Source: Arenibacter nanhaiticus
Lineage (GTDB): Bacteria > Bacteroidota > Bacteroidia > Flavobacteriales > Flavobacteriaceae
DNA: 64,000 nt
Assembly (NCBI RefSeq): GCF_900141935.1
Contig: NZ_FQYX01000004.1
Span: 8,668-72,667, forward strand
Direction: 5' to 3'
Shown: in pieces, positions 25,774-44,106 of the stretch
How the letters are laid out: each line of letters starts with the position of its first letter
Numbering within the stretch: the first letter of the stretch is position 1
Translations under genes and position numbers: made by a program
The notes under the pieces: model-generated
Told to the model about the DNA's origin: nothing
Databases searched by the model: none
Seen by the model: only the letters and a program-made list of their open reading frames with translations

Positions 25774-28539
25774 ATGAGACATACTTATAAAATTTTTGGA
25801 ATGACCTGTAATGGCTGTAGAAGCCATGTCGAAGAAACGTTGAAACAGGTTTCAGGGGTTACGGAGGCATCGGTAGACTTGGCAAAGGCCGAGGCTACGA
25901 TACGCATGAGCGAGCATATCGCTTTGGAGAAATTCCAAGAAGCCTTGGCAAAGGAAGGTGACCGTTATAGTATTGCCATGCCGGGAGAGGAAAAGGTTCA
26001 GCAGCAGGAATCCAATAAGGAGCCCAAAGAAGGCGGAACAGCTACCTATAAAATTTTTGGGATGACCTGTAATGGCTGTAGAAGCCATGTCGAAGAAACG
26101 TTGAAACAGGTTTCAGGGGTTACGGAGGCATCGGTAGACTTGGCAAAGGCCGAGGCTACGATACGCATGAGCGAACATATCGCTTTGGAGAAATTCCAAG
26201 AAGCCTTGGCAAAAGAAGGTGACCGTTATAGTATTGCCATGCCCGGGGAAGAACATCCCCAACAGCATATGGCACCTAAAAAAAAACCAAAAGGTAGCGG
26301 TACGGGTACCTTTTATTGCCCTATGCATTGCGAAGGCGATAAAGTATATGACAAGGCGGGGGATTGCCCGGTCTGTGGAATGGATTTGGTAGAAGAAGTG
26401 AAAATGGATGCCTTTGGGGCTACCCAATATACCTGTCCTATGCATCCGGAAGTACTAAAGGACGAACCCGGGGATTGCCCTATCTGTGGTATGGATCTGG
26501 TGCCCGAAGAAGCCGATATATCTGCCGAAGAAAAGAATTATAAGAAGCTGCTCGGCAAGTTTTGGATCGCGGGAATCTTTACCCTGCCCATTTTTATAAT
26601 TGCCATGTCCGAAATGATACCGAACAACCCATTGTACGACATGCTCCCGATGACCTATTGGAACTGGATACAATTTGGGCTTTCTATCCCCGTAGTATTT
26701 TATGCTACCTGGATGTTTTTTGAACGTGCTTATCGTTCCCTAAAAACCTGGAACCTCAATATGTTTACCCTGATCGGTATCGGAGCAGGAGTGGCGTGGT
26801 TGTTCAGTGTTTTTGGATTGTTGTTTCCCGATTTTTTCCCTGCCCAGTTTAAGACGCATCACGGAACCGTGCACGTATATTTTGAAGCAGCGACCGTTAT
26901 CCTAACCTTGGTGTTGATGGGACAATTGTTGGAAGCACGGGCCCATAGTAAAACAAACAACGCCGTAAAGGAGCTGTTGAAACTGGCACCCAATAAAGCG
27001 GTACGAGTAGTCGATGGCAAGGAAGAAACCATCGCAATAGATAAAATTAAAATAGGAGATTTATTAAGGGTAAAACCGGGAGAAAAAATACCCGTGGACG
27101 GGGCCATCCGAGAAGGCAATACTTCTATAGACGAATCCATGATCACCGGGGAGCCCATTCCTGTAGATAAGGGGGAAGGCGATACCGTAAATTCGGGGAC
27201 CATTAATGGAAAGCAATCCTTTTTGATGGAAGCCCAAAAAGTAGGGTCCGATACCCTGCTGGCCCAGATCATCGATATGGTGAACAAAGCCAGTAGGAGT
27301 CAGGCACCCATACAAAAATTGGCCGATAAAATCTCTGGCTATTTTGTGCCCGTGGTGGTCGTCATAGCCTTGATCACTTTCGTAATATGGGCAAGTTTTG
27401 GTCCGGAACCGGCCTATGTGTACGCACTGGTCAACGCCATTGCCGTACTTATTATTGCATGTCCCTGTGCCCTAGGTTTGGCCACTCCTATGTCCGTTAT
27501 GGTGGGCGTTGGGAAAGGAGCACAGTCGGGAGTATTGATCAAGAATGCGGAGGCCTTGGAGAAGATGGATACCATAGATACCCTCATCATAGACAAAACA
27601 GGGACTATCACCGAAGGAAAGCCTTCTGTAGAACGAGTAGGGAGTGCCTCTTCCGAGTATACCCAAGCGCAAATACTACAATATATATACGCGCTCAACA
27701 ACCATAGCGAGCACCCTTTGGCAGAAGCAACCGTGGCCTATGCCAAAGAAAAAGAAAGTACCCTGTTAAAGGTATCCGATTTTAGGTCGGTAACCGGAAA
27801 AGGGGTCACCGGAACCGCAGAAGGGAAGTCACTGGCCTTGGGCAATAAAAAAATGATGGAAGAAGCGCAAGTAACTTTGTCCGACGAATTGCTGGAGGCG
27901 GTGACGATAGAGCAGAAAAAGGGGAAAACAGTGCCTTTCTTGGCCATAGATAATATAGGGGCAGGCTATGTGGTCATCAGTGATAAAATTAAGGAGGGCA
28001 GTAAAAAAGCCATTGAAGAACTGCAGTCACACGGGGTAGCGGTAATGATGCTAACCGGGGATAATTACGATACTGCCAGCGCAGTGGCCCAAAGCCTGAA
28101 TTTGGCCGATTTTAAAGCCGAAATGCTGCCCGAGGATAAACTAAATATAGTTGCCCAATTACAAAAAGACGGCAAAAAGGTAGCGATGGCCGGTGACGGT
28201 ATCAACGATGCCCCAGCTTTGGCAAAGGCCGATGTAGGAATCGCCATGGGAACCGGAACCGACGTAGCCATAGAAAGCGCCGCCATGACCCTGGTAAAAG
28301 GAGATTTACATGGCATAGTAAAGGCGCGGAATTTGAGTGTAAAAGTGATGAAGAATATAAAACAGAATTTATTCTTTGCCCTAATTTACAATAGTCTAGG
28401 CGTGCCTATTGCCGCGGGATTGCTGTTTCCGGTTTTTGGACTGTTATTGTCTCCCATGATCGCGGCACTGGCCATGAGCTTTAGCTCGGTATCGGTGATC
28501 GCCAATGCCCTAAGATTAAGAACAACCAATATTACGTAA
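25774..28539 (+). CDS. copA: Copper-translocating P1B-type ATPase with duplicated HMA and two HMBD domains
   Basis: 921 residues from the ATG at 25774. In order: two HMA domains at about residues 4-73 and 91-160, identical in protein and each with a TCNGC copper motif (Cys12/15 and Cys99/102); two heavy-metal-binding (YHS-like HMBD) modules, [19 protein letters not shown] at about 180-209 and [18 protein letters not shown] at about 218-246; then a P1B-ATPase core with TGEP, the CPC transport motif (Cys563-Pro-Cys565), DKTGT (Asp607) and GDGINDAP (about 806). It exports Cu+ from cytoplasm to periplasm. HMA1 and HMA2 are separated by exactly 87 codons. Confidence 0.96.
25783..26253 (+). repeat. 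In-frame tandem duplication of the HMA domain
   Basis: Two 210-bp units at 25783-25992 and 26044-26253, offset by 261 bases, code for the same 70 residues. By eye they differ at about seven positions, all silent, and are joined by a 17-residue linker ([11 protein letters not shown] and following). Confidence 0.9.
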
Positions 28540-31006: not shown

Positions 31007-31062
31007 ATGGTTCATGGTGATTTTCGCTTCGAATAAGTGAAAATTGCTATGAACCATTTTTA
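31007..31062 (+). terminator. Long hairpin terminator ending the copper island
   Basis: A stem of about 23 bp with a few mismatches and the loop CGAAT runs from 31007 to 31057 (ATGGTTCAT arms), followed by TTTTTATT. It lies 24 bases past the CusB stop and before the next transcription unit. Confidence 0.75.
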
Positions 31063-31225: not shown

Positions 31226-32533
31226 TTGAAAGCAGGGAAAAAAGATATCAGGTTTTTGTTATATGGGGCATTTGCTTCCTTTGGAACATATTTTTGTATG
31301 TATGCCTTTCGAAAGCCCTTTACTGTGGCTACTTATGAGGATTTTTCTTTTATGGGGATCGATTACAAAATTATCCTGATCATTGCCCAGGTAATCGGGT
31401 ATATGCTTTCCAAGTTCATTGGCATAAAGGTAATTTCGGAGCTTAAACCTCAAAACCGCATCTATTATTTAATAGGAATGATCTTTTTAGCAGAGGTCAG
31501 TCTCCTTCTCTTTGGCATAACCCCAATGCCCTATAATGTTATTTTTATGTTTCTAAACGGGCTGCCATTGGGGATTGTTTGGGGTATTGTTTTTTCATAT
31601 TTGGAAGGCCGCAAGTTTACCGAAGTCCTTGGCGTGGCCCTATGTTCTAGTTTTATTGTTTCTAGTGGCGTAGTAAAATCGGCTGGACTTTTGGTGATGG
31701 AAAAGTGGCAGGTGTCCGAGTTTTGGATGCCGGCGGTTACCGGTGCGGTTTTTATTGTTCCTTTTGTATTTTTTGCCTGGTTGCTCAATAGGATGCCACC
31801 ACCTACGGCAGAAGATGAACAGCTAAAAACAGCACGGAAACCTATGACTGCAAAAGATCGTAAAAAAGTGTTTGCAGCTTTCTTTTTTCCGATAGTGATT
31901 TTGGTTTTCTTCTATACCTTTTTAACCGCTTTGCGAGATTTTAGGGATAATTTTACCAGAGAAATATGGGATTCCCTAGGCTTTGAAGGGAACGCCGCCA
32001 TCTATACCTTTTCAGAAATACCTATCGCTGTTTTAGTATTGGTGATCATCGGTGTCATCGGACTTTTAAAAAGCAATTATAAAGCTTTTGTCTCTTATCA
32101 TTATTTGTTGCTTTTTGGTACCGTGGGTATTGGGGTAACAACCTTGCTTTTTCAAGGGGGAGTTATTTCTCCGGTGGTTTGGATGATGAGCGTGGGTTTT
32201 GGGCTTTATATTTGTTATGTGCCCTTTAACTGCATTTTTTTTGATAGGATGATCGCAACCTTTAAAATAAACGGCAATGCCGGATACCTGATTTACATTG
32301 CCGATGCCTTTGGGTATTTGGGAAGTATGGCCGTACTCCTTTATAAGAATTTTGGACAGAGCAATATTTCATGGCTTAACTTTTTTATAGGAAGCTCCTA
32401 TATGATTGCTGTTTTAGGAGGTGTAATTGCCGTGATATCCTTGCTGTACTTTAAAAGAAAATATAGAAAAGAAAATAGTTTAAAAATTAGCAGGGAAACA
32501 TCACATCCCGAAATGCAACTGATAGAATTATGA
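31226..32533 (+). CDS. DUF5690 inner-membrane transporter-like protein
   Basis: A 435-residue membrane protein with about 12 hydrophobic segments. The opening KAGKKDIRFLLYGAFASFGTYFCMYAFRKPF and GLPLGIVWGIVFSYLEGRK are typical of DUF5690, a family found in Bacteroidota that resembles the major facilitator superfamily. The start codon appears to be TTG at 31226, with AAGGA five bases ahead. It overlaps the FAD oxidase gene by 4 bases (ATGA), and the two lie with the phosphonatase-like gene in one unit. It probably carries a phosphorus compound, such as a phosphonate, across the inner membrane; that is inferred from context. Confidence 0.82.
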   Translation: MKAGKKDIRFLLYGAFASFGTYFCMYAFRKPFTVATYEDFSFMGIDYKIILIIAQVIGYMLSKFIGIKVISELKPQNRIYYLIGMIFLAEVSLLLFGITPMPYNVIFMFLNGLPLGIVWGIVFSYLEGRKFTEVLGVALCSSFIVSSGVVKSAGLLVMEKWQVSEFWMPAVTGAVFIVPFVFFAWLLNRMPPPTAEDEQLKTARKPMTAKDRKKVFAAFFFPIVILVFFYTFLTALRDFRDNFTREIWDSLGFEGNAAIYTFSEIPIAVLVLVIIGVIGLLKSNYKAFVSYHYLLLFGTVGIGVTTLLFQGGVISPVVWMMSVGFGLYICYVPFNCIFFDRMIATFKINGNAGYLIYIADAFGYLGSMAVLLYKNFGQSNISWLNFFIGSSYMIAVLGGVIAVISLLYFKRKYRKENSLKISRETSHPEMQLIEL

Positions 32534-33699
32534 AGAAAAAATATGACCTTGTAGTCGTTGGTGGAGGTGTTTTGGGCACTTTTCATGCATATGCCGCGAT
32601 GGATTTGGGACTGAAAGTGGCCTTGATCGAAAAAAACAATGCCCCTCAGGGAGCCACAGTACGCAATTTTGGACAGGTGGTGCCTTCCGGAATGGACTCT
32701 AAGTGGCAGGCCTATGGAAGGGAGAGTTTGCGGATATATAAGGAAATACAATCAAAATTTGATATTTCTGTGCGTCAACAAGGGTCTGTGTATTTAGCCT
32801 CTAACGAAGAGGAAGTGCAATTGCTCGAAGAATTGGCGGCAATCAACAAACAGAATGATTATAGCTCCCAGCTATTGACAAAAAGCCAATGCCTTGATAA
32901 ATATGATGGCCTGCGTAGCGATTATGTAAAAGGCGGACTTTTTTTTCCGGAGGAAGTAATCGTAGAACCAAGGGTCATGATCAATAAACTGCATGCTTAT
33001 ATGAAAGGCGAGGGGCTCGACCTGTTTTTCAATAAAAAAATAACGCAGTGCGAACCTTTGGCCGATGAGGTGTTGCTGATTACCGCTATGGGGGAAACTT
33101 TTAAAGCTGCCAAGGTAATGATTTGCAATGGGAGCGATTTTGAGACCCTGTATCCCAAAACTTTTCAGGAAAGCGATCTAGTAGTGTCTAAACTACAGAT
33201 GATGAGTACCAAACCCCAACAAAACTATAGATTGCAAGGCTCTGTCTTAACCGGACTATCTATTAGGCGCTATGAGGCTTTTGAAGAATGTGCTTCCTAT
33301 AAAGCTATAAAGGCCAAAGAAAGCCCAGATTCTCTCGAAAAAAAATGGGGCGTCCATATTTTGTTCAAACAAGCTTGCGACGGTTCGGTTATTCTTGGCG
33401 ATTCTCACGAATATGCTTCCGCAAAGGAAAAGGATCTTTTAGGATTTGATTTAAATATGGATATCGATAATTTTATCATCGAGGAATCTAAAAAAATAAT
33501 GGACCTGCCCAATTATGACATACAACATCGTTGGTTCGGGATGTATTCGCAATGTAAAACCACCGATATTTATCAGAAGAATATGGATGATAATATTCAT
33601 ATCGTTACAGGTATAGGAGGAAAGGGAATGACGGGAAGCGCTGGGTTTTCCAAGGAAAATATTACGAAACTTTATAATAAAGAAGAATGCACACTATAG
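32530..33699 (+). CDS. TIGR03364-type FAD-dependent oxidoreductase (proposed aminophosphonate oxidase)
   Basis: A 389-residue protein of the D-amino-acid oxidase/glycine oxidase fold. FAD binding: DLVVVGGGVLGTFHAYAAMDLGLKVALIEKNN with the GxGxxG loop and acidic Glu. The group-specific VRNFGQVVPSGM follows. Near the C-terminus HIVTGIGGKGMTGSAGF closes the FAD site. The TIGR03364 family is known to occur next to phosphonatase-like hydrolases and is thought to oxidise 2-aminoethylphosphonate or N-substituted forms to phosphonoacetaldehyde, releasing ammonia and peroxide. That fits here exactly, because the next gene (13-base overlap) encodes such a hydrolase. The substrate is inferred. Confidence 0.85.
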   Translation: MKKKYDLVVVGGGVLGTFHAYAAMDLGLKVALIEKNNAPQGATVRNFGQVVPSGMDSKWQAYGRESLRIYKEIQSKFDISVRQQGSVYLASNEEEVQLLEELAAINKQNDYSSQLLTKSQCLDKYDGLRSDYVKGGLFFPEEVIVEPRVMINKLHAYMKGEGLDLFFNKKITQCEPLADEVLLITAMGETFKAAKVMICNGSDFETLYPKTFQESDLVVSKLQMMSTKPQQNYRLQGSVLTGLSIRRYEAFEECASYKAIKAKESPDSLEKKWGVHILFKQACDGSVILGDSHEYASAKEKDLLGFDLNMDIDNFIIEESKKIMDLPNYDIQHRWFGMYSQCKTTDIYQKNMDDNIHIVTGIGGKGMTGSAGFSKENITKLYNKEECTL

Positions 33700-34373
33700 A
33701 ATTAGCCGTATTTGATATGGCAGGGACCACGGTCGATGAAGATAACGTGGTGTACAAAACCTTGCAAAAGGCAATCAATAAAAAAGGCTTAGACTTAAGT
33801 CTGGACTTTGTTTTGGAACACGGGGCGGGAAAAGAAAAGCACCAAGCTATAAAAGACATATTAAAGGCCAACGATACTGCTGATGAAGGGTATACTACCT
33901 CAGAAATTTTCGAGGACTTTAAAGAATTGTTAAAACAGGCTTACCAAGCATTGGAGGTTAGTACCTATGATGGGGTGCCAGAACTGTTGGAAAGCCTAAA
34001 AAAGGCAAATATTAAAGTTGCTTTAAACACGGGCTATGATAAAAATACGGCCCAATTGTTATTAGACAAAATGGGATGGAGCCAAGGGAATCAATACGAT
34101 GCCCTTATTACGGCCGATGATGTAAAATTGGGCAGGCCCAATCCAGACATGATCGAAGCAGCCATGAACTTGTTGCAGGTGACCGATGCTCAAAAAGTAC
34201 TAAAGGCCGGAGATTCAATAATCGATATTCAAGAAGGTAAAAATGCCCACTGCGGGATGACCGTCGGAGTTACGTCAGGAGCCCATAATAAAGAGCAGTT
34301 ATTATCGGCCAAACCAACCTACGTCCTAGACTCGTTAGGCGAATTAAAAGACATTCTTTTAAAGGAAGCTTAG
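33687..34373 (+). CDS. Phosphonatase-like HAD hydrolase (TIGR03351 type)
   Basis: A 228-residue HAD-superfamily protein. Motif I is FDMAGTTVDED (nucleophile Asp10), in the form AGTTVD shared with phosphonoacetaldehyde hydrolase; motif II is ALNTGYDK; the later acidic motif is KAGDSIIDIQEG. In the cap domain, EHGAGKEKHQAI places Lys49 and His52 where Bacillus cereus PhnX has the Schiff-base Lys53 and His56, so imine chemistry on phosphonoacetaldehyde is possible. The product would be phosphate and acetaldehyde. The gene overlaps the FAD oxidase, and a strong terminator follows. Family members with other substrates are known, so the activity remains to be proved. Confidence 0.85.
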   Translation: MHTIELAVFDMAGTTVDEDNVVYKTLQKAINKKGLDLSLDFVLEHGAGKEKHQAIKDILKANDTADEGYTTSEIFEDFKELLKQAYQALEVSTYDGVPELLESLKKANIKVALNTGYDKNTAQLLLDKMGWSQGNQYDALITADDVKLGRPNPDMIEAAMNLLQVTDAQKVLKAGDSIIDIQEGKNAHCGMTVGVTSGAHNKEQLLSAKPTYVLDSLGELKDILLKEA

Positions 34374-34398
34374 GTAAAAAGTTAATGCAATTCACGAA

Positions 34399-34438
34399 AA
34401 CGGACATTGATCGGTAAGATCAATGTCCGTTTTTTTTA
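34399..34438 (+). terminator. Intrinsic terminator after the phosphonatase-like gene
   Basis: A perfect 14-bp stem (AACGGACATTGATC with loop GGTAA) at 34399-34431 followed by seven further T. It lies 25 bases past the stop codon and separates the oxidase-hydrolase unit from the SusC/SusD unit. The rest of the gap up to 34716 has no supported gene. Confidence 0.85.
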
Positions 34439-34716
34439 TGTCTGACCTTCCAAGACAAGAAAGGATGGTGTTTTGCATATTCAACATCAAAAAGAACCCT
34501 CCCTCCGCTATTGCCTTCAAGGCCATAAAAGTTCAATTTATAGTATGCAGTATCAGGCCTATTCATAGGAATACCTTCGGCACTTCCTTGCTAACCTTAA
34601 CCTAACAAACCTAGCAGTATCATTACAATCTCTTAATATAAAGGAAGAGCTTGGTTAATGTTGTCAAGGCATATTTGCAGCACCTTAACAAACAACTAAC
34701 AAAATCTTTCAAAAAC

Positions 34717-37700
34717 ATGATTAAAACGAAACTATTATTGATATTTGCTTTGCTAGCATTTGTCAGCGGCCACTCCCAAAAAATCTTTGAGGGGACGGTT
34801 TTGGACGAAAATAATATTCCATTGCCGGGAGCTTCCGTGGTTATAAAGGGAAGTACTACCGGGGCAGCAGCCGATTTTGACGGCAATTTCCAAATAGCAT
34901 TGCCAACAGGAACAGAAACCTTGGTGGTTTCCTATATAGGGTATGTATCCTCGGAATTTGCCACGGCAAATAAACTCAGGGCCGATATTCAGCTATTGCC
35001 AGACTCTCAAAAACTCGATGAGGTAGTGGTAACCGCACTGGGAATCAGTCGTGCCGAGAAAAAAATAGGCTATGCCACCCAAACCATCGATACCGAAATA
35101 ATCGAAGAGGTAAACGCCCCAAATGTCGGGAGCTTGTTTTCTGGCCAGGTAGCCGGACTTTCGGTCAGTAATCCAACTGGGTTATTTCAAAAGCCTTCTT
35201 TTTCGCTGAGAGGTAAAACCCCCCTGATCGTTATCGACGGTATTGCCGTAGAAACAGATTTTTATGATGTTTCTGCCAATGACATTGCCAATATCAATGT
35301 ATTAAAAGGAACCACAGCATCGGCCCTGTACGGATCTAGAGGAAGGAACGGAGCCATTTTGATCACTACAAAAAATGCCAAAACCGATGGTTTAGAGGTT
35401 TCTGTATCCCATAATACCATGGTTTCGGCCGGATTTACCGTATTTCCCGAAACACAAAATGAATACGGGAACGGTTCTAATGGAAAATATGAGTTCTGGG
35501 ACGGGAAAGATGGTGGTGTGTCCGATGGGGACATGATCTGGGGCCCTAAATTTGAGCCCGGAGTGATGGTATCACAATGGAACAGCCCCATTTATGATAA
35601 TGTCACCGGAGAAACCATTCCGTGGTGGGGCGACGTTTCCGGAACACAGTACGACGATAAGTCGCGCTATTCCCGAGTACCGACTCCTTGGAAATACCAC
35701 AATAACCTAAAAGACTTTATGGAACCGGGCTATATCGCTTCAACAGATTTTGCGATAGCCAATAAATCGGAAAAGGGGGCCTTTAGATTGTCGGGGAATT
35801 TCTCTAGCCAAAAAGATAGGGTGCCCAATGCCAGTCTTAAAACTGGGGGACTTAGTTTTAAATCGACCACCAACCTTTCCGAAGCCCTTACCTTGGATAG
35901 TAAATTGTCCTATAATAAGGTGTTTTCGCCCAACTATCCCAGACACGGGTACGGCCCAAAAAACCATATGTATACCATTCTTATTTGGATGGGTGATGAT
36001 GTCAATGGAAAGGAATTGGACGAACATCGGTATGTGCCAGGACAGGAAGGCTACCGGCAGGCAAATTATAATTATGCCTGGTATAACAATGTATACTTTG
36101 CCGCTCATGAGCTGAACCAGAAATACGATGCCAACCTGATCAATGCGCAAATGGCATTGAACTATAAAATTACCGACGGTCTAAGCCTACAGGCAAGGGG
36201 ATCGGCAGTGGTCCAGGATATTTTTGAAGACCGCCAAAGTCCCAAAAGTTACTTGAACTATGGAGATGCCAGGGATGGAGACTATAAAACATGGAACAGC
36301 AATAGGCTAACCGTAGATTACGATATCCTAGCATCTTATAGCAAGGATTTGAGCGATGATTTTTCTTTTGATATCAATGCCGGTGCAGCTTCTTTTTATA
36401 GAAAATACCAACAAGAATACAATTCTACCGATGGTTTGGTAGTGCCCTTTGTATATAGTTTAAACAACACCAAGGGTGCGGTGGCAGCCAAAACCCATTT
36501 ACAAGAAAAGGCTACCAATAGTGTGTATGCTACTTTTGGAATGGATCTTTACAATGCGGTGTTCCTAACCTTGGCGGCCAGAAACGATTGGTCTTCTACC
36601 TTGCCCAAGGAAAACAGATCCTATTTTTACCCTTCGGCTTCTTTAAGTACCGTGGTATCTAATTATGTGAACCTTCCAGTGGGGATAGATTATTTAAAGG
36701 CCTTTGGTTCATGGGCAAAAGTGTCTAGCGACCTTGGCCCGTATAGTACCGAATCTTTTTATACGAATAATGGTGTGTTTGGAGGAAACGTAAAATTGGA
36801 ATACCCCAATGGTTTGGTCAATGCCAACATTCAGCCAGAAAGCTCTAACTCTTTCGAATTGGGACTGAGTTCGGCGTTTATACAAAACCAAGTCCGCTTG
36901 GACCTTACTTACTACAATGTAGTCGATACCAACCAGATTATAGACTTGCCTATTTCTAACACCTCTGGTTTTGAGAGCCGTAAGGTGAACGGGAACGAAT
37001 ATACTACCAAAGGATTAGAGCTTGTCCTAGGAGCTACCCCTTTCCGTACGGATGACTTTAGATGGGACGCAACGGCCAACTGGAGTAGAAAGGTAAGGCG
37101 TATCACAGAAATTTATGGCGATAATGCTACCTATAACAATTTAAGACTCAATGACCGCGCCGATAGCTATTATGCTACCGTTTGGCAAAAATCTCCTGCA
37201 GGGGATTTGATTTTAAACGACAAAGGAATGCCGGTACGGGATAATTTTAAACAGCGATTGGGGCATACCGACCCTAGTTGGACCTTGGGGCTTCAGAACA
37301 ATTTTAGATACAAAAAACTTTCCGTAAATATCGGTATCGATGGGGTATGGGGCGGATTGATGCGTTCTTTAACCGTTGAAAAAATGTGGTGGGGCGGTAA
37401 GCATCCTAATTCTACGGAATACAGGGATGCGGAATACGCGGCAGGGAAGCCTGTTTATGTTCCCCAAGGCGTCACGGTAACTGGAGGAGAATTGGTACAA
37501 GATGTAGATGGTACCGTCATTTCCGATACCAGGACCTTTCAAGAAAATACCACCGCCGTAAGCTGGCAGACCTGGTCGCAGAATTATCCTTACAGAGGGG
37601 CAGTGACCAATAAGGAAAATAAGAAATTCGCGAACATTTTTGACCGCAGCTTCTTTAAACTGCGAACCCTTTCCTTTAAATACGATTTAACCGAACTAGC

Positions 37701-37860
37701 CAATATAAAAGGAGTAAAAAGCCTAGAGACAACCTTAAGCGGATATAACCTTTTCGTTTGGAAAAAAGCAGATTTGATAGATCCAGATTTTGGAAATGAC
37801 AACAATTTGCAAGACCCATCTTCAAGATATATTGGTATGGGTGTTAATGTTAAATTTTAG
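34717..37860 (+). CDS. SusC/RagA-type TonB-dependent outer-membrane transporter
   Basis: 1047 residues from the ATG at 34717; the upstream part of the frame is not plausible signal sequence. The signal peptide ends near GHSQ (residue 20). A carboxypeptidase-regulatory-like domain follows (IFEGTVLDENNIPLPGASVVIKGSTTGAAADFDGNF), then a TonB-box-like segment (KLDEVVVTALG), the plug (VNAPNVGSLFSGQVAGLSVSNPTG..LIVIDGIAVETDF..NVLKGTTASALYGSRGRNGAILITTK) and a 22-strand barrel that ends GMGVNVKF. It is the active uptake channel paired with the SusD lipoprotein just downstream. Most relatives import glycans, but the company of phosphoesterases and phosphonate genes suggests a phosphorus compound here. 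Confidence 0.95.
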   Translation: MIKTKLLLIFALLAFVSGHSQKIFEGTVLDENNIPLPGASVVIKGSTTGAAADFDGNFQIALPTGTETLVVSYIGYVSSEFATANKLRADIQLLPDSQKLDEVVVTALGISRAEKKIGYATQTIDTEIIEEVNAPNVGSLFSGQVAGLSVSNPTGLFQKPSFSLRGKTPLIVIDGIAVETDFYDVSANDIANINVLKGTTASALYGSRGRNGAILITTKNAKTDGLEVSVSHNTMVSAGFTVFPETQNEYGNGSNGKYEFWDGKDGGVSDGDMIWGPKFEPGVMVSQWNSPIYDNVTGETIPWWGDVSGTQYDDKSRYSRVPTPWKYHNNLKDFMEPGYIASTDFAIANKSEKGAFRLSGNFSSQKDRVPNASLKTGGLSFKSTTNLSEALTLDSKLSYNKVFSPNYPRHGYGPKNHMYTILIWMGDDVNGKELDEHRYVPGQEGYRQANYNYAWYNNVYFAAHELNQKYDANLINAQMALNYKITDGLSLQARGSAVVQDIFEDRQSPKSYLNYGDARDGDYKTWNSNRLTVDYDILASYSKDLSDDFSFDINAGAASFYRKYQQEYNSTDGLVVPFVYSLNNTKGAVAAKTHLQEKATNSVYATFGMDLYNAVFLTLAARNDWSSTLPKENRSYFYPSASLSTVVSNYVNLPVGIDYLKAFGSWAKVSSDLGPYSTESFYTNNGVFGGNVKLEYPNGLVNANIQPESSNSFELGLSSAFIQNQVRLDLTYYNVVDTNQIIDLPISNTSGFESRKVNGNEYTTKGLELVLGATPFRTDDFRWDATANWSRKVRRITEIYGDNATYNNLRLNDRADSYYATVWQKSPAGDLILNDKGMPVRDNFKQRLGHTDPSWTLGLQNNFRYKKLSVNIGIDGVWGGLMRSLTVEKMWWGGKHPNSTEYRDAEYAAGKPVYVPQGVTVTGGELVQDVDGTVISDTRTFQENTTAVSWQTWSQNYPYRGAVTNKENKKFANIFDRSFFKLRTLSFKYDLTELANIKGVKSLETTLSGYNLFVWKKADLIDPDFGNDNNLQDPSSRYIGMGVNVKF

Positions 37861-37873
37861 AAATAGAAACACA

Positions 37874-39355
37874 ATGAAGAAAATAAAAATATTATGCCAC
37901 CTATTTATTCTGATAACCCTTTCGGCATGTCACGATTTATCAGATATTAACGAAAACCCTAATAACGTGGGGCAGACCCACCCTCAGTTATTATTGACCA
38001 ATATTGCCAGCAATGCCTTTACGGTCCAAGGGACTTCGGCCTTGTATGCGTCTAGAATGCTAGTGCAAACAGACGGAGAAAGCAACAACCAATATTATAA
38101 TTGGAACCGCGCCAGTTTTGGAGACTATAATATGTTGGGAGAAGTAACCAAAATGATGCAAGAGGCAGAACGCATCAATAGCACAGAATACATCGCTCTC
38201 GCCAAATTCTTTAGGGCCTATTACTTTTATAACCTGAGCTTAACCTTTGGCGATATTCCGTATAGTGAAGCCCTACAAGGGGAAACAGCGGAAAATTATG
38301 CTCCTAAATACGATTCCCAAAAAGAAGTGTTTATAGGGATATTAAAGGAACTTTCAGAAGCCAACGAACTTTTAAGGGACAATACCAACCTTATTGCAGG
38401 GGATATTATTTTTGGTGGCAATACGCTAAAATGGCAAAAGTTGGTCAATTCCTTTAGGCTAAAGGTACTCATGACCCTTTCTAAAAAAGAAGGCGATGCC
38501 CAATTGGGAATTAAAGAGGCCTTCGCTTCAATTTATGCCAACGAGCCTATTATGGTCTCTAATGAAGACAATGGGCAATTGGTGTACTCGGACGAAGAGG
38601 GCAGTAGGTACCGAGAATTCAATTCTAGTAGCTACGGCTCTGGGATGTATATGTCCGCAACCTTTGTAGATAGGTTAAAGGATAGGCAAGACCCTAGGTT
38701 GTTTATCTTTTGCGGAAGGACAAAGAATGCCAAGGAAGCAGGTTTGGCCATAGACGATTTTAATGCCTATGAAGGTGGCGATCCCTTGGCCCCTTATGCA
38801 GAAGTAAACGATAAGGCCGCTGCCGGTGACGTGTCTAAAGTGAATCTGAGGTATTCTACAGACCCCACCACCGAACCTCACAACCTGTTGGGATATTGGG
38901 AACTGGAATTTATCTTGGCGGAAGCAGCCGTAAGAGGATGGATAGCCACCCCTGCCAAAACCCATTACGAAAATGGCGTTAAAGCATCTTTTAGCTTTTA
39001 TAACGACTATGCCAAAAACTTTGAAACCTATGTTGATGCATCGGATGCAGATACTTATTTAAGCGGTTCCTTGGTAGCCTTTGATGCGGCGTTCCCTACG
39101 GCAAAAAAACTGGAACTGATCTTGACCCAAAAATATTTCACTTCCTTTTTACAGTCGGGTTGGAGAATGTATTTTGACCATTTGAGAACAGGGTACCCAA
39201 GTTTTGCCCAAACACCTGGGATTACTCCCCCAACAAGATGGATGTATCCCCAGTCCGAATACAACAACAATACCGAGAATGTTTCCAGGGCCATTGAAGT
39301 TCAATTTGGGACTGGAAACGATAAAATACGGGAAATAAGCTGGTGGTTGCAATAA
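37874..39355 (+). CDS. SusD/RagB-type outer-membrane substrate-binding lipoprotein
   Basis: 493 residues from the ATG at 37874; the open frame extends upstream into the SusC gene, but that part is an out-of-frame shadow. The lipobox ends at Cys19 (TLSAC). The body has SusD-family features: DLSDINENPNNVGQTHPQLLLTNI at the start, helical TPR-like pairs in EYIALAKFFRAYYFYNLSLTFGDIPYSEAL, and the C-terminal FLQSGWRMYFDHLRTGYPSFAQTPG region ending PQSEYNNN. This is the SusD-like group (often called SusD/RagB or SusD-like_2). It sits 13 bases after SusC and forms the lid that captures the ligand at the surface. Confidence 0.93.
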   Translation: MKKIKILCHLFILITLSACHDLSDINENPNNVGQTHPQLLLTNIASNAFTVQGTSALYASRMLVQTDGESNNQYYNWNRASFGDYNMLGEVTKMMQEAERINSTEYIALAKFFRAYYFYNLSLTFGDIPYSEALQGETAENYAPKYDSQKEVFIGILKELSEANELLRDNTNLIAGDIIFGGNTLKWQKLVNSFRLKVLMTLSKKEGDAQLGIKEAFASIYANEPIMVSNEDNGQLVYSDEEGSRYREFNSSSYGSGMYMSATFVDRLKDRQDPRLFIFCGRTKNAKEAGLAIDDFNAYEGGDPLAPYAEVNDKAAAGDVSKVNLRYSTDPTTEPHNLLGYWELEFILAEAAVRGWIATPAKTHYENGVKASFSFYNDYAKNFETYVDASDADTYLSGSLVAFDAAFPTAKKLELILTQKYFTSFLQSGWRMYFDHLRTGYPSFAQTPGITPPTRWMYPQSEYNNNTENVSRAIEVQFGTGNDKIREISWWLQ

Positions 39356-39379
39356 GCGGATAAGAACGATTCAGTAGCG

Positions 39380-39414
39380 ACCTAAGGCCAAAGGATATTT
39401 CTTTGGTCTTAGGT
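39380..39414. terminator. Hairpin between SusD and the phosphoesterase gene
   Basis: A 14-bp stem with one G-T pair (ACCTAAGGCCAAAG / CTTTGGTCTTAGGT) lies 25 bases past the SusD stop. It has no strong T run, so it may attenuate or stabilise the transcript rather than end it. Confidence 0.5.
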
Positions 39415-39514
39415 TATTATTGCAGCAAAGCCATAGAAAACAGCATAAGAATGATTATTTTAGAAAAATAATTTTCTTTTAAAGAGGTTATTAAACCAAC
39501 CATTAAACTACCCC

Positions 39515-41119
39515 ATGATTAAAAGTATTCCGCTTATCGGTGTCCTATGTTTTCTTATGTTTATAGGTCGCGCGCAACAAAAGGACGTGAGCATCCAAAT
39601 ACAACCATACCTTCAGGACGCCACCCCAACTTCCATAAAAATTTTGTGGCAAACCACCGCAGGGGAAGAAAGTATCGTAGAATGGGGCCTTACCCCAAAA
39701 CTGGGAAAAAAATCAAAGGGTACTGCCGTCGATATCAATTATACCGAGACCAGGTTGCACGAGGTAAAAGTAGAAGGCCTTAAGCGTTTTACAGAATATT
39801 ACTATCGGGTAAAAACCGCTAAGGCCGTATCCGATATTTATCAGTTTAAAACACCACCTTTTGCCAGGGATCAGGAGTCTTTTAAAATTGTGGCCATGAG
39901 CGATATGCAAAAAGACCACAATAACCCTGATAAATTTTCCGAAGTGGTCAATGAGGGAGTCTTAACATATTTGGAAAAAGAGTTTGGAGGCACCCTGCCC
40001 GACAACCTTGCTATGGTATTGATCCCCGGCGATTTGGTAGAAAATGGCACCAAGTACGACCAATGGAAAAACGATTTTTTTAATCCGGCAGAAAAATTGT
40101 TGTCCGAGGTTCCCGTATATCCTGTATTGGGGAACCATGAAAAGAATTCGGTCTTTTACTTTAAATATTTTAGTCTGCCAGAAAACGGTAGTCCGGCCTA
40201 TGCCGAACATTGGTGGTTTAAAGATTATGGGAACACCAGAATAATAGGTTTGAACTCTAATGATGGCTACAACAATAGCAGCGAACAATACCAATGGTTA
40301 AAAAAACTATTGGAAGATACCGCCAAAGACAAGGAAGTAGATTTTGTCTTTGCCCAATTGCACCATCCCCACAAATCGGAACTATGGATTCCGGGGGAAG
40401 AAGATTTTTCAGGGAAAGTGGTAGCCTTATTGGAAGAATTCTCTACAGAAACCGGAATACCAAGCATTCACTTTTTTGGACATACCCACGGATATTCGCG
40501 GGGTCAATCCCGGGATCATAAACACCTTTGGATCAATGTGGCTTCGGCAGGTGGGGCCATAGATAATTGGGGAGAGTTTGAAGGCAGGGATTATGAAGAA
40601 TTTAGCGTAACCCAAGACGAATACGGATTTGTAATGGTAGAAGTCGATGGCAATAGGGAAGATCCCAAATTTACCATTAAAAGAATCAGCAGAGGTAATG
40701 AAACCGAGTTTCGGGAAAACGAACTTAGGGATAGTATTACCGTTTGGAGAAAAGAAAGAAAACCACAGCCGCCAGTGGCCCTTTCCCCCAATAATGAAAC
40801 CGTTCATTTTTCGGGAACGACCTTAAAGGCAGGCGCATTTAAAACAAACTTTAAGGATGCCTTCCATGCCGCTTCGCACTGGCAAATAGCAACGACCGAA
40901 AACTTTGAAAAACCTGTTTTTGAGAGTTGGAAACAGCACGAAAACTGGTATTACGAAGAAAACAGGCAAAAAGACGATGACCTTTCCGACGAGGTGACAA
41001 AACGCTTAGTGCCCAATACCACCTATTTTTGGAGAGTACGTTACCGAGATCAAAATTTAAACTGGAGCGATTGGTCCAATACCTTAACTTTTAACACTAT
41101 AAATTCAACAAAAAAATGA
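39515..41119 (+). CDS. Secreted purple-acid-phosphatase-like metallophosphoesterase
   Basis: A 534-residue protein with a signal peptide (FIGRAQQ, residues 1-21). Residues about 25-110 are the fibronectin-like N-terminal domain of purple acid phosphatases (IQIQPYLQDATPTSIKILWQTT..YYYRVKTAK). The metallophosphoesterase motifs follow: MSDMQKDHNN, LIPGDLVENG (GDLV), VYPVLGNHEKNS (GNHE), AQLHHPHKS (H) and FFGHTHGYSRGQ (GHTH). A second C-terminal domain of about 130 residues resembles a fibronectin-like fold (TTYFWRVRYRDQNLNWSDWSNTLTF). It hydrolyses phosphate esters in the periplasm or outside the cell. It overlaps the alkaline-phosphatase-superfamily gene by 4 bases. Confidence 0.9.
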   Translation: MIKSIPLIGVLCFLMFIGRAQQKDVSIQIQPYLQDATPTSIKILWQTTAGEESIVEWGLTPKLGKKSKGTAVDINYTETRLHEVKVEGLKRFTEYYYRVKTAKAVSDIYQFKTPPFARDQESFKIVAMSDMQKDHNNPDKFSEVVNEGVLTYLEKEFGGTLPDNLAMVLIPGDLVENGTKYDQWKNDFFNPAEKLLSEVPVYPVLGNHEKNSVFYFKYFSLPENGSPAYAEHWWFKDYGNTRIIGLNSNDGYNNSSEQYQWLKKLLEDTAKDKEVDFVFAQLHHPHKSELWIPGEEDFSGKVVALLEEFSTETGIPSIHFFGHTHGYSRGQSRDHKHLWINVASAGGAIDNWGEFEGRDYEEFSVTQDEYGFVMVEVDGNREDPKFTIKRISRGNETEFRENELRDSITVWRKERKPQPPVALSPNNETVHFSGTTLKAGAFKTNFKDAFHAASHWQIATTENFEKPVFESWKQHENWYYEENRQKDDDLSDEVTKRLVPNTTYFWRVRYRDQNLNWSDWSNTLTFNTINSTKK

Positions 41120-42213
41120 AAAGAAATTTAGTTGCCCTTATGATGGTTCTTGTAGCGGGAATTTTCTCTAAGGCCATGGCGCAAACAGATAATAGTCCCA
41201 AGGTGGTTTTAATTACCTTAGACGGACTCCGTTGGCAAGAATTATTTTCGGGTGCCGATCCCTTATTGGTGGCAAATAAAAAATACGTAGGCGATACTAC
41301 GGAATTAAAATCCCTTTTCTGGAGAGAAACTGCCGAGGAAAGAAGAGCTAGTTTAATGCCTTTTTTCTGGAACGAGGTAGTAAAAATGGGGCAGTTGCAC
41401 GGCAATAGAAACCAAGGCAGCAAGGTAGATCTTACCAATAAAATGTGGTTTTCATATCCTGGTTACAATGAAATTTTAACCGGTGCTGCCGACGATGTAA
41501 ACATCACCAGCAACAATAAGGTTAACAACCCCAATAAAACTATTTTGGAGCTTGTAAACAATCTCCCGGAATATAAGGGCAAGGTAGCCGCTTTTGGAAG
41601 CTGGGACGTCTTTCCTTTTATCATCAACAAAGAGCGCTCGGGCATTCCTGTGAATGCCGGATTTGATGTGGCCCAAGGAGACGATTTAACGGAAAGGGAG
41701 CAGTTTTTGAACAAATTGCAACAACAGTTGCCAAGCCCATGGGGATCGGTACGGTTAGATGCCTTTACACATCACTTTGCCTTGGAACACATGAAAAAGA
41801 AACACCCTAAACTTTTGTTTATCTCCTATGGGGAAACCGACGATTTTGCCCATGATGGGGATTACGATGCCTATTTAAAAGCAGCCCATAATACCGATGG
41901 CTTAATTAAGGAGCTTTGGCAATACACCCAAGCAGATCCTTTTTACAAGGACAATACTACTTTTATCATCACCACTGATCACGGTCGTGGGACCGATCCA
42001 TTAGATACGTGGAAAGGTCATGGCAGTAGTATAAAAGGAGCTGGCGAAGTGTGGATGGTGGCCTTTGGAAAAGGCGTTAAGGCCTTGGGAGAGCTTAAAG
42101 AAAACGGGCAATTGTTTACTACCCAAATTGCACCCACCATTATTAAAGTCTTGGATGCCCCTAAAAAAGCATTCGACTTAAAGGAAAAACCATTGCGTTT
42201 AAATTCCAAATAA
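41116..42213 (+). CDS. Secreted alkaline-phosphatase-superfamily hydrolase
   Basis: A 365-residue protein with a signal peptide ending AMAQ (residue 22). Metal-binding and catalytic blocks of the alkaline phosphatase superfamily are visible: VVLITLDGLRWQELFSG (metal Asp), WFSYPGYNEILTG (putative Ser nucleophile where nucleotide pyrophosphatases have Thr), SYGETDDFAHDGDYDAYLKA (metal Asp and His) and FIITTDHGRG (Asp-His). The fold contains phosphate monoesterases, diesterases, phosphonate monoester hydrolases and phosphonoacetate hydrolase. In this cluster it may free an alcohol or a phosphonate from an ester. The gene closes the unit and is followed by a terminator. Confidence 0.85.
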   Translation: MKRNLVALMMVLVAGIFSKAMAQTDNSPKVVLITLDGLRWQELFSGADPLLVANKKYVGDTTELKSLFWRETAEERRASLMPFFWNEVVKMGQLHGNRNQGSKVDLTNKMWFSYPGYNEILTGAADDVNITSNNKVNNPNKTILELVNNLPEYKGKVAAFGSWDVFPFIINKERSGIPVNAGFDVAQGDDLTEREQFLNKLQQQLPSPWGSVRLDAFTHHFALEHMKKKHPKLLFISYGETDDFAHDGDYDAYLKAAHNTDGLIKELWQYTQADPFYKDNTTFIITTDHGRGTDPLDTWKGHGSSIKGAGEVWMVAFGKGVKALGELKENGQLFTTQIAPTIIKVLDAPKKAFDLKEKPLRLNSK

Positions 42214-42231: not shown

Positions 42232-42265
42232 ACAAAAGCCGTTACATGTATGTAGCGGCTTTTGT
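42232..42265. terminator. Terminator ending the phosphonate-like locus
   Basis: A 14-bp stem with one G-T pair (ACAAAAGCCG and TAC arms around ATGTAT) at 42232-42265, followed by CGTTTTAA. It lies between convergent genes and can serve both strands. Confidence 0.75.
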
Positions 42266-42291: not shown

Positions 42292-44106
42292 TCAATGGGA
42301 AATCGCCATAGCGTCAATTTCCTGGTTGATGGCCTTTAGTACTTCCTCTTCTCGTTTTAATTCCTCAAGAATAGCGTTTTTAGAACCTTCAAAACCTTTT
42401 TTTAGCGAGCCAAATAGGTTTTGGTAATACGCCACCCCATCGAGCATATTGGTGACAAAGGTTCGTAAGTACTTCTCTTGTTTTTTATCCATGGCAAGTT
42501 CAGCGGCCGACAACCTGTTTTTAAGATAGTCCATATAAAGTCCCAACTCCTTAATGAACATATGAGGCCTATCTGTTCGGACAATGACATTTCTATGACC
42601 ATAAATATGATCTGTCATTTCCTTTAAACGCATGGTTCTGGAAAAATATGCCATGTTGGGCCCTGGGCAAATAGAGACCCCTGTTCCTTCGGCCTTTGTG
42701 TCCAAATCATAGGCCAATAAGGCAGAAGTCCCCAAGCCAACACAGGTACAGGACTTTTCCGTTATTTTTTGCCATCGCTGCTCGTATGCCTCCCTGGAAA
42801 TATCTTCTGCATTTAATTCCTTGATTTTTAAATGTTGGTACTGCCTAGAAGCGGTACAGATACCTTGTTCCGTATAGTCCTTGTTTAAGGCAACGAATTT
42901 TTTGGGACACGAACTTCCCGGCCTGTTTTTATCAATCAATTTTTGTTTTTCCAAATCCTTGGTGTTTCCTCTAAGGTTATGGAAAGGAACGCCCAGAGGA
43001 GAAATATCGCTTAAATACAGATCCTTTTCCTGGGCATTTACCAGCTTATTACGGGTGTCCCTATCTACGGTGGTCGCTTCTGGGACCAATAAAAATGGGG
43101 TTCCCCATCCCACGGAATCTACCTGGTAATGGTCTAGTAAAAAGGAATGTTCTTCTGCCGTACCCACCCCGCCTTGGGCAGTGATCCTTAAGGGTAAGGA
43201 TGCAGTTGGCAGACTGCGGTTTTTTTGCTCCAGGGCCGAAATTAATATACCGTGTACTTCCTTTATATAGGATTCCCGGTTTTTCAGAAATTCGGCTAAA
43301 ATAGGTCCCATTAAGTAACCGTCCGTCGCAAAGGCATGTCCCCCGCAATTCAAGCCGGACTCTATTCTATATTCGGAAACCCACAGGCCTTTTTTGGCCA
43401 AAAATTTTCCCTGGATCAAAGCCGACCTATAATCGCTTACTTTGAGTACTATTTTCTTTTTTACGACTCCTTTGTCATCGGGGTAGAAGTCTTCAAAATT
43501 TTCTATATAACTGTACAAACGCGGATTCATACCGGCCGATAGGATTAAGGAAGAGCTTAGGTCGCTATTGGCGTACCCACGTAAGGCAGCATGCGCATCG
43601 TTATAAATTACCGCTTGCTTCTCTTTACCGATATAATTGTCCTTGTCTACCTTGGTCATGATGTTGACATCAATACTGCCCATGGTCAAATGTTCTCGGC
43701 ACCATTTTTTGAGGTCGGGGAGATTAAAGTCTCCCGAAGCTATTTTTAGAAACTCCTGTTTTAAGGTAGCTGAATCTGGCAGTAGCTGAAAGTACTCTTT
43801 TATCTCCTGACTAGTTTCAAGGCTGGAATTTTTTAAGGCTTCAAATTTTTCGCGCGCCAATTTGTTCACCATATTTAGATAAGAGGTAATGCGTTGTGCT
43901 CTAAAATCTTCGAACGTATCCGTAATCTCTTGATAAGGGAGTTCAAATTTTTCACAATACATTTTCCTTAATTTCTCCAAGAGAATATCATCTACCAAGG
44001 AAATTACCGAGTCAATACCCAAATGAGACACTTTTAAGGGAGTATCTATGGTAAATCCAATGCCCATTACCGGAATATGAAAGCTGTGCTGTTTCATTTT
44101 ATTCAT
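42292..44106 (-). CDS. Nitronate-monooxygenase/FabK-like TIM-barrel protein with cysteine-rich C-terminus
   Basis: A 604-residue conserved protein without an assigned function. Residues 10-50 (HIPVMGIGFTIDTPLKVSHLGIDSVISLVDD) and 215-345 read as a TIM barrel: GLNCGGHAF (GGH, about 255-257) and ITAQGGVGTAEEHSFLLDHYQVDSVGWGTPFLLVPEAT (GGVG from about 312) resemble the flavin-binding GGH and GG-x-G..GT-F blocks of nitronate monooxygenase and FabK. The C-terminal part adds four conserved-looking cysteines (Cys400, Cys417, Cys453 and Cys455) that could hold an iron-sulfur cluster. A helical tail with Lys and Glu follows. The N-terminal helical insert (residues 60-150) is unusual for the family. 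The reaction is unknown. Confidence 0.55.
   Translation of the reverse strand: MNKMKQHSFHIPVMGIGFTIDTPLKVSHLGIDSVISLVDDILLEKLRKMYCEKFELPYQEITDTFEDFRAQRITSYLNMVNKLAREKFEALKNSSLETSQEIKEYFQLLPDSATLKQEFLKIASGDFNLPDLKKWCREHLTMGSIDVNIMTKVDKDNYIGKEKQAVIYNDAHAALRGYANSDLSSSLILSAGMNPRLYSYIENFEDFYPDDKGVVKKKIVLKVSDYRSALIQGKFLAKKGLWVSEYRIESGLNCGGHAFATDGYLMGPILAEFLKNRESYIKEVHGILISALEQKNRSLPTASLPLRITAQGGVGTAEEHSFLLDHYQVDSVGWGTPFLLVPEATTVDRDTRNKLVNAQEKDLYLSDISPLGVPFHNLRGNTKDLEKQKLIDKNRPGSSCPKKFVALNKDYTEQGICTASRQYQHLKIKELNAEDISREAYEQRWQKITEKSCTCVGLGTSALLAYDLDTKAEGTGVSICPGPNMAYFSRTMRLKEMTDHIYGHRNVIVRTDRPHMFIKELGLYMDYLKNRLSAAELAMDKKQEKYLRTFVTNMLDGVAYYQNLFGSLKKGFEGSKNAILEELKREEEVLKAINQEIDAMAISH

Follow-up and report, generated by a model that had tools for sequence, protein, structure and literature searches.

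The locus at positions 31226-42213 of the window, the 64,000-nucleotide stretch of Arenibacter nanhaiticus DNA that was analysed, probably serves to scavenge phosphorus from aminophosphonates and their esters. It consists of seven genes (Table 1). A SusC/SusD pair (SusCD) would bind and import an aminophosphonate-bearing molecule, and two exported phosphoesterases, called PAP and PDE below, would cleave it outside the inner membrane, releasing 2-aminoethylphosphonate (AEP) or N-methyl-AEP. The DUF5690 membrane protein, which is antiporter-like in its fold and in one motif, would carry these compounds to the cytoplasm, where a PbfD-type FAD oxidase would deaminate them to phosphonoacetaldehyde and a PhnX-like HAD hydrolase would break the carbon-phosphorus (C-P) bond, yielding acetaldehyde and phosphate. 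It is a more tentative proposition that in the Flavobacteriaceae widespread loci with SusCD or TonB-dependent receptors harvest aminophosphonates on larger molecules, perhaps glycans, that DUF5690 is a new family of aminophosphonate permeases, and that species of one genus combine the same uptake site with different C-P-cleaving routes.

The oxidase surpassed the curated cut-off of TIGR03364 (423 versus 285 bits). Two enzymes, PbfD1, a member of this family, and PbfD2, have been assayed; oxidation by PbfD enzymes turns both N-methyl-AEP and AEP into phosphonoacetaldehyde, and PbfD2 and PhnX have been described as a pathway that lacks PhnW (accessible parts of PMC10590968). Among proteins of solved structure, the HAD hydrolase is closest in sequence to phosphonoacetaldehyde hydrolases, and its K49 aligns with a lysine that is an arginine in PDB entry 2ioh. 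In 86 related loci (see below), K49 was kept in 85 and H52 in 56, and D10, T115, G116, Y117, R150, D176 and D180 were kept in all. K49 is aligned with Lys53, the Schiff-base lysine of PhnX, and the conserved set comprises the nucleophile Asp, the lysine, the Arg and two metal-type Asp. It follows from the family biochemistry and the conserved residues that the oxidase would convert an aminophosphonate to phosphonoacetaldehyde, and that the HAD enzyme would split the latter to acetaldehyde and phosphate. PhnW was not found in the window genome using TIGR02326, for which the best match reached 32.7 bits (cut-off 400.8); TIGR03301 was not searched genome-wide. The TIGR02326 cut-off was passed by none of seven genomes, and the PhnW of a congener scored just 344 on this model. 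Neither a PhnX above its cut-off nor a C-P lyase was present in 18 genomes of the genus. Therefore, the oxidase and the HAD hydrolase are not redundant with these enzymes.

To compare the locus with its relatives, GTDB genomes were scanned with an alignment of six oxidases. This yielded 361 relatives, of which the best 80 (L036-L115) were taken with flanks of up to 10 kb. Together with five further stretches and the window, 86 loci were used for the clustering of open reading frames (ORFs); at most 84 of them are independent, because L033 and L090 stem from the same genome, as do L034 and L084. In all of the best 80 loci, DUF5690 and the phosphonatase-like HAD gene were found with tblastn within 10 kb of the oxidase, and in 77 of them DUF5690 precedes the oxidase, with its start no more than 1.6 kb away; L092, L096 and L107 have it at another position within the stretch. 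A receptor cluster was represented in 75 of the 86 loci, SusD in 39, four phosphodiesterase clusters in 59, PAP in 6, an XRE-cupin regulator in 81 and a class III pyridoxal phosphate (PLP) enzyme in 31.

As a control, forty 20-kb stretches from nine genomes of the same order were used, at round positions chosen to avoid known oxidase loci. Eight of the 80 loci were shorter than 21 kb, and 72 full-length loci remained for the test. TonB/SusC receptors were present in 63/72 loci versus 9/40 control stretches, SusD in 35/72 versus 2/40, alkaline-phosphatase-superfamily enzymes in 56/72 versus 0/40, the XRE-cupin regulator in 70/72 versus 0/40, the class III enzyme in 31/72 versus 2/40 and an MBL-like protein in 17/72 versus 0/40. 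The p-values of this comparison are optimistic, because several queries were taken from the test loci and related genomes are not independent. In two Leeuwenhoekiella loci (L071, L075), PAP and PDE lie directly upstream of DUF5690. The fullest arrangement was found in Euzebyella marina (G228, L143), in which DUF5690, the oxidase and the HAD gene, the regulator, and a run of SusC, SusD, ENPP, PbfA, PAP and PDE genes lie all together. Against the PbfA model, whose cut-off is 525 bits, its PLP enzyme scored 717; lyase activity of PbfA on (R)-1-hydroxy-AEP has been assayed (PMC8154272, seen in part). The presence of the trio in 80/80 loci, the enrichment of receptors and phosphodiesterases and the joint occurrence of all seven orthologues in Euzebyella marina upheld the earlier claim that both units are parts of a single locus, in a neighbourhood that recurs. 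The XRE-cupin regulator was missing in the window, L032, L068, L099 and L113, and it was not found in the window genome or that of the sister species (G012) at E <= 1e-10. It was also sought in the gap 34374-34716, without a match among the 15 of 24 weak matches listed. In related loci, phosphodiesterases have additional domains, namely PA14 plus chitobiase-C-terminal, laminin-G or hemopexin domains (L090 17473-19143, L060 12170-13852, L098 12063-13886), hinting at glycan-bound substrates.

The DUF5690 protein is proposed to be an aminophosphonate permease, a role that we infer from its fold, one motif and its gene company. The best solved Foldseek matches to its predicted structure (mean pLDDT 90.6, built from 46 sequences) were proteins of the major facilitator superfamily (MFS), with human G6PT (SLC37A4) first, followed by sialin, FLVCR1, SLC37A2, GLUT5 and DgoT; GlpT took rank 31. 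The frequency of G6PT in this list is not independent evidence, because G6PT has many entries. With the organophosphate:phosphate antiporters (OPA) GlpT, UhpT and SLC37A4, DUF5690 has in common the MFS fold and the motif YxxxYxxRKxF in the first transmembrane helix (TM1); unlike them, it forms a Pfam family of its own and matches no NCBIfam family. In profile alignments, R29-K30 fell onto Arg45-Lys46 of GlpT and onto the same motif in UhpT and UhpC. R29, K30, R237 and R240 were kept in 86/86 loci. We take Arg45 to be the TM1 substrate arginine of GlpT and Arg269 to be its TM7 arginine; the invariant R237 sits four columns off the latter. The hhalign scores were 29.6 for GlpT, 39.5 for UhpT and 24.1 for UhpC, versus 16.6 for the control GalP. 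OPA likeness is challenged by the low hhalign probabilities (GlpT 7%, UhpT 47%, UhpC 2%), by the control DgoT, which with 26.1 beat UhpC, though over 24 columns outside TM1, and by the lack of a match to any OPA family profile in the NCBIfam scan. A search of the DUF5690 profile against PDB sequences returned one thioredoxin chain only (E 0.13), and a single-sequence search none. The match of the TM1 motif is the stronger point. The sequence-only reading had spoken of a complete route; for the transport step, this leans only on the fold, the motif and the gene company of DUF5690.

Both phosphoesterases have signal-peptide-like N-termini and are probably exported; these stretches and the SusD lipobox were read off the translations by eye. 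The PDB relatives of PAP are purple acid phosphatases, and seven metal-ligand-type residues were kept in 17/17 sequences. PAP lacks the tyrosine of the GDxxY motif and reads GDLVE instead; we take this motif and the metal-ligand motifs to be signatures of purple acid phosphatases. In PDE, seven ligand-type residues were kept in 14/14 sequences, and its fold resembled those of sulfatases, YejM, LtaS and NPP. No PDB sequence matched PDE and its model was weak (pLDDT 71; four of five models at most 55), therefore these fold matches indicate the superfamily and not the substrate.

Within the genus, the uptake locus is combined with different enzymes. DUF5690 was found in 18 of 100 relatives, six of which have the oxidase and the HAD hydrolase (including G088, whose HAD protein scored 216.2 bits, just below the cut-off), while twelve congeners have neither. 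In the latter, DUF5690 is located at the same site, with the upstream ATPase gene within the stretch in 8/12 and the downstream gene for a 604-aa protein (U604) in 11/11 stretches that reach that far. One stretch (G013) ends at a contig end, leaving 11 informative congeners, of which 11 have ENPP, 11 PbfA, 8 SusCD, 10 PAP and 3 PDE at the DUF5690 site. The PbfA proteins of ten congener genomes reached 726-738 bits (cut-off 525; that of G002 was not scored). The phosphonoacetate hydrolase PhnA exceeded its cut-off in 13 of the 18 genus genomes, i.e., in the twelve DUF5690-only congeners and in G008, and had no match in the window genome, in G012 or in G001, G004 and G010, which lack DUF5690. 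PbfA and the PhnW-PhnY-PhnA clusters, which are present in congeners, were not above cut-off in the window genome, nor was PbfA in the sister species. Thus, the window species and its sister would use PbfD and the PhnX-like enzyme, and the twelve others would use PbfA at the same site (one stretch ends before its position) and a separate PhnW-PhnY-PhnA cluster. The occurrence of PbfD plus HAD in the former versus PbfA/PhnA in the latter indicates that one uptake locus goes with alternative aminophosphonate routes. The simplest history would be that an ancestral locus with more genes, resembling that of Euzebyella, lost different parts in different lineages. Since the congeners are without phosphonatase, it was also considered whether their PbfA-like enzyme is a phosphoethanolamine phospho-lyase; this is less likely given its PbfA scores and the presence of PhnA.

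In the separate PhnA clusters (L230 1-19001 in G013; L231-L242), all 13 PhnA genes are accompanied by PhnY-like, PhnW-like and MFS genes; an FAD oxidase of another kind was present in 11/13 stretches and a SusCD pair in 6/13. The PhnY of G013 scored 627.5 bits, just below the cut-off of 635.65, and the closest models to its MFS protein were OPA models, under their cut-offs. The PhnW frame of G013 has only 229 aa, though the similarity spans 369 residues; the full-length PhnW of G011 passed TIGR03301.

Several results weigh against a locus devoted as a whole to aminophosphonates. Orthologues of its SusD were sought in 198 other genomes of the family, one per genus, and were found in seven (63-76%), with PAP beside five and PDE beside four of them. 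The oxidase unit lay beside the orthologous SusD in only one of the seven, and five had no TIGR03364 match at E <= 1e-30. Two of these five (G185, G218) have a PbfA over cut-off elsewhere, and three (G209, G047, G113) do not. SusD orthologues are thus mostly without the oxidase, and therefore the catabolic pair is not an obligatory partner of SusCD and the phosphoesterases; their joint occurrence without the oxidase implies that the cassette may also serve phosphate esters. Furthermore, all five phosphoesterase clusters are missing from 26 of the 86 loci and both receptor clusters from 11 (some stretches end at contig ends), the enrichment of PAP over the controls was not significant (5/72 versus 0/40, p 0.16), and G008 has PhnA yet no DUF5690. 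On these grounds two separate jobs are conceivable, a phosphate-ester system of the phosphate utilisation type formed by SusCD and the two phosphoesterases, and beside it an independent AEP unit supplied via porins. The terminator between the units would fit such a division, as would G038, in which they are far apart on the same contig, at 1.26 and 3.71 Mb. This explanation is rather unlikely, because in Euzebyella marina PbfA stands in one run with SusCD, ENPP, PAP and PDE, because PbfA and SusCD share the site in 8 of the 11 informative congeners, and because the oxidase unit is repeatedly surrounded by other receptors and phosphodiesterases that are not orthologous. That SusCD takes up a phosphonate and not a phosphate ester, as suggested in the sequence-only reading, is conjectural, its orthologue standing beside one or both phosphoesterases in oxidase-less genomes. 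The sequence-only reading had named as a refutation that SusCD in relatives accompanies glycan enzymes instead of the oxidase-hydrolase unit. Half of this pattern was seen: SusCD was often found without this unit, then with phosphoesterases or PbfA; glycan enzymes were not scanned there.

It is highly improbable that SusCD simply belongs to a common type of glycan utilisation locus whose neighbours are there by accident. Most studied SusCD pairs serve glycans, and at its C-terminus PAP matches an Ig domain that takes its name from a rhamnosidase (PF25788). However, none of the seven genes fell into a catalytic family of glycan enzymes in the NCBIfam/Pfam scans, in which they differ from polysaccharide utilisation loci with their carbohydrate-active enzymes, and the enrichment over control stretches and the same gene company in several genera speak against chance. 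It is also improbable, albeit to a lesser degree, that the oxidase and the HAD enzyme act on another amino-phosphorus compound, the TIGR03351 enzyme not being a phosphonoacetaldehyde hydrolase. The HAD protein stayed under the cut-off of the PhnX equivalog (TIGR01422, 116 versus 220 bits) and was classed in TIGR03351 instead (243 versus 218.9 bits), the counterpart of His52 is kept only in part of the loci, and Met49 and Cys22, to which we assign a role in PhnX, are unmatched in the alignment. Yet the nucleophile Asp, the lysine, the Arg and the two metal-type Asp are kept in 85-86 of 86 loci, and the assayed PbfD enzymes use AEP and N-methyl-AEP (PMC10590968, accessible parts). Under the favoured reading, scavenging of aminophosphonate phosphorus, the larger substrate might be a phosphonolipid, a phosphonoglycan or a simple ester.

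The locus shares a PbfD-type FAD oxidase, a phosphonatase and the lack of PhnW with the PbfD2-PhnX route of Mariniblastus fucicola (PMC10590968). That route stems from Planctomycetota and the present locus from Bacteroidota; no word beginning with Bacteroid- or Flavobacter- occurs in the accessible main text of that paper. In contrast to that route, the HAD enzyme here is a TIGR03351 PhnX-like protein and is tied to DUF5690 and to SusCD with phosphoesterases. In the PusCD phosphate utilisation systems of Flavobacterium (PMC8115612), SusCD likewise lies beside phosphomono- and diesterases. Low-phosphate induction was shown there. In contrast to the present locus, no phosphonate enzyme, phosphonate route or DUF5690 is named in the accessible text. 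A 2020 paper, in the part available, already mentions SusCD next to phosphonate-degrading enzymes, and the available part of PMC9426549 deals with AEP proteins of Pseudomonas and contains no such locus. A limited view of the literature on SusD- or TonB-dependent uptake and aminoethylphosphonate in Bacteroidota or Flavobacteria revealed no description of such a locus, and DUF5690 was named in no paper of the literature searched. Within this view, the locus class appears foreshadowed and not described. The arrangement is recurrent yet little described, and related species would use different cutting enzymes in it.

Bacteroidota are among the chief degraders of polymers in the sea and in soil, yet the literature searched says little about the ways in which they acquire phosphorus from phosphonates. 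For SusCD systems that lack glycan enzymes, the locus suggests a class of substrates that can be tested, and for DUF5690 a candidate function. The genus offers a natural comparison, with species that have the same uptake site and different aminophosphonate routes.

Gene identities were derived from ORF calls and NCBIfam/Pfam scans, which agreed with the claim of seven neighbouring plus-strand genes of the families named (Table 1).

Table 1. Features of the locus and its borders in the window.
Feature	Positions	Strand	Evidence
Terminator-like hairpin, end of upstream unit	31009-31055	+	20-pair stem, T-rich tail
DUF5690 membrane protein, proposed OPA-like MFS aminophosphonate permease	31226-32533	+	PF18943, 575 bits
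PbfD-type FAD oxidase	32530-33699	+	TIGR03364, 423 bits (cut-off 285)
Phosphonatase-like HAD hydrolase	33687-34373	+	TIGR03351, 243 bits (cut-off 218.9)
Terminator-like hairpin between both units	34396-34434	+	17-pair stem, T tail
SusC-like TonB-dependent receptor	34717-37860	+	TIGR04056, 477 bits; TIGR04057
SusD-like lipoprotein	37874-39355	+	PF12771, 241.6 bits; lipobox LSAC
Metallophosphoesterase (PAP), purple-acid-phosphatase architecture, probably exported	39515-41119	+	PF16656 and PF00149
Alkaline-phosphatase-superfamily phosphoesterase (PDE), probably exported	41116-42213	+	PF01676/PF01663, weak, over Pfam cut-offs
Terminator-like hairpin, end of second unit	42232-42265	+	15-pair stem

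The overlaps of 4, 13 and 4 bases that had been claimed agree with the ORF coordinates. The SusC ORF opens at 34651 and the SusD ORF at 37790; the likely starts are the ATG codons at 34717 and 37874, the latter followed downstream by the lipobox, and therefore SusC and SusD do not overlap. The three expected terminators, at both ends and between the units, were recovered in a pattern scan as the top 4 of 22 hairpin matches by pair number (one was entered twice, in another register); the shuffled sequences gave a mean of 13.8 matches of any length, with long ones not broken out. Promoter-like matches showed a modest excess (36 versus 26.2 in shuffles, standard deviation 5.3) and were not used.

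The gap between the units (34374-34650) contains a stretch on the minus strand that stays open for about 55 codons and is protein-like in composition; among the matches listed of the ORFs of related loci, a single weak one (E 0.03) falls there. Upstream of the locus, the gene of a copper-type P-ATPase contains a 225-base direct repeat (25782-26267, 94% identical, spacing 261), a duplicated N-terminal metal-binding domain. The copies in congeners are shorter (834-835 versus 930 aa), while for the sister G012 the alignment covers 917 residues, the duplicated part among them. Downstream, the genes for U604, TauE and SSF recur in only 2, 1 and 2 of the 80 related loci, respectively, and are therefore not part of the locus. 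U604 is encoded on the minus strand (42292-44106), has no NCBIfam match or credible Pfam match, and is kept at the same site in the congeners with about 72% identity.

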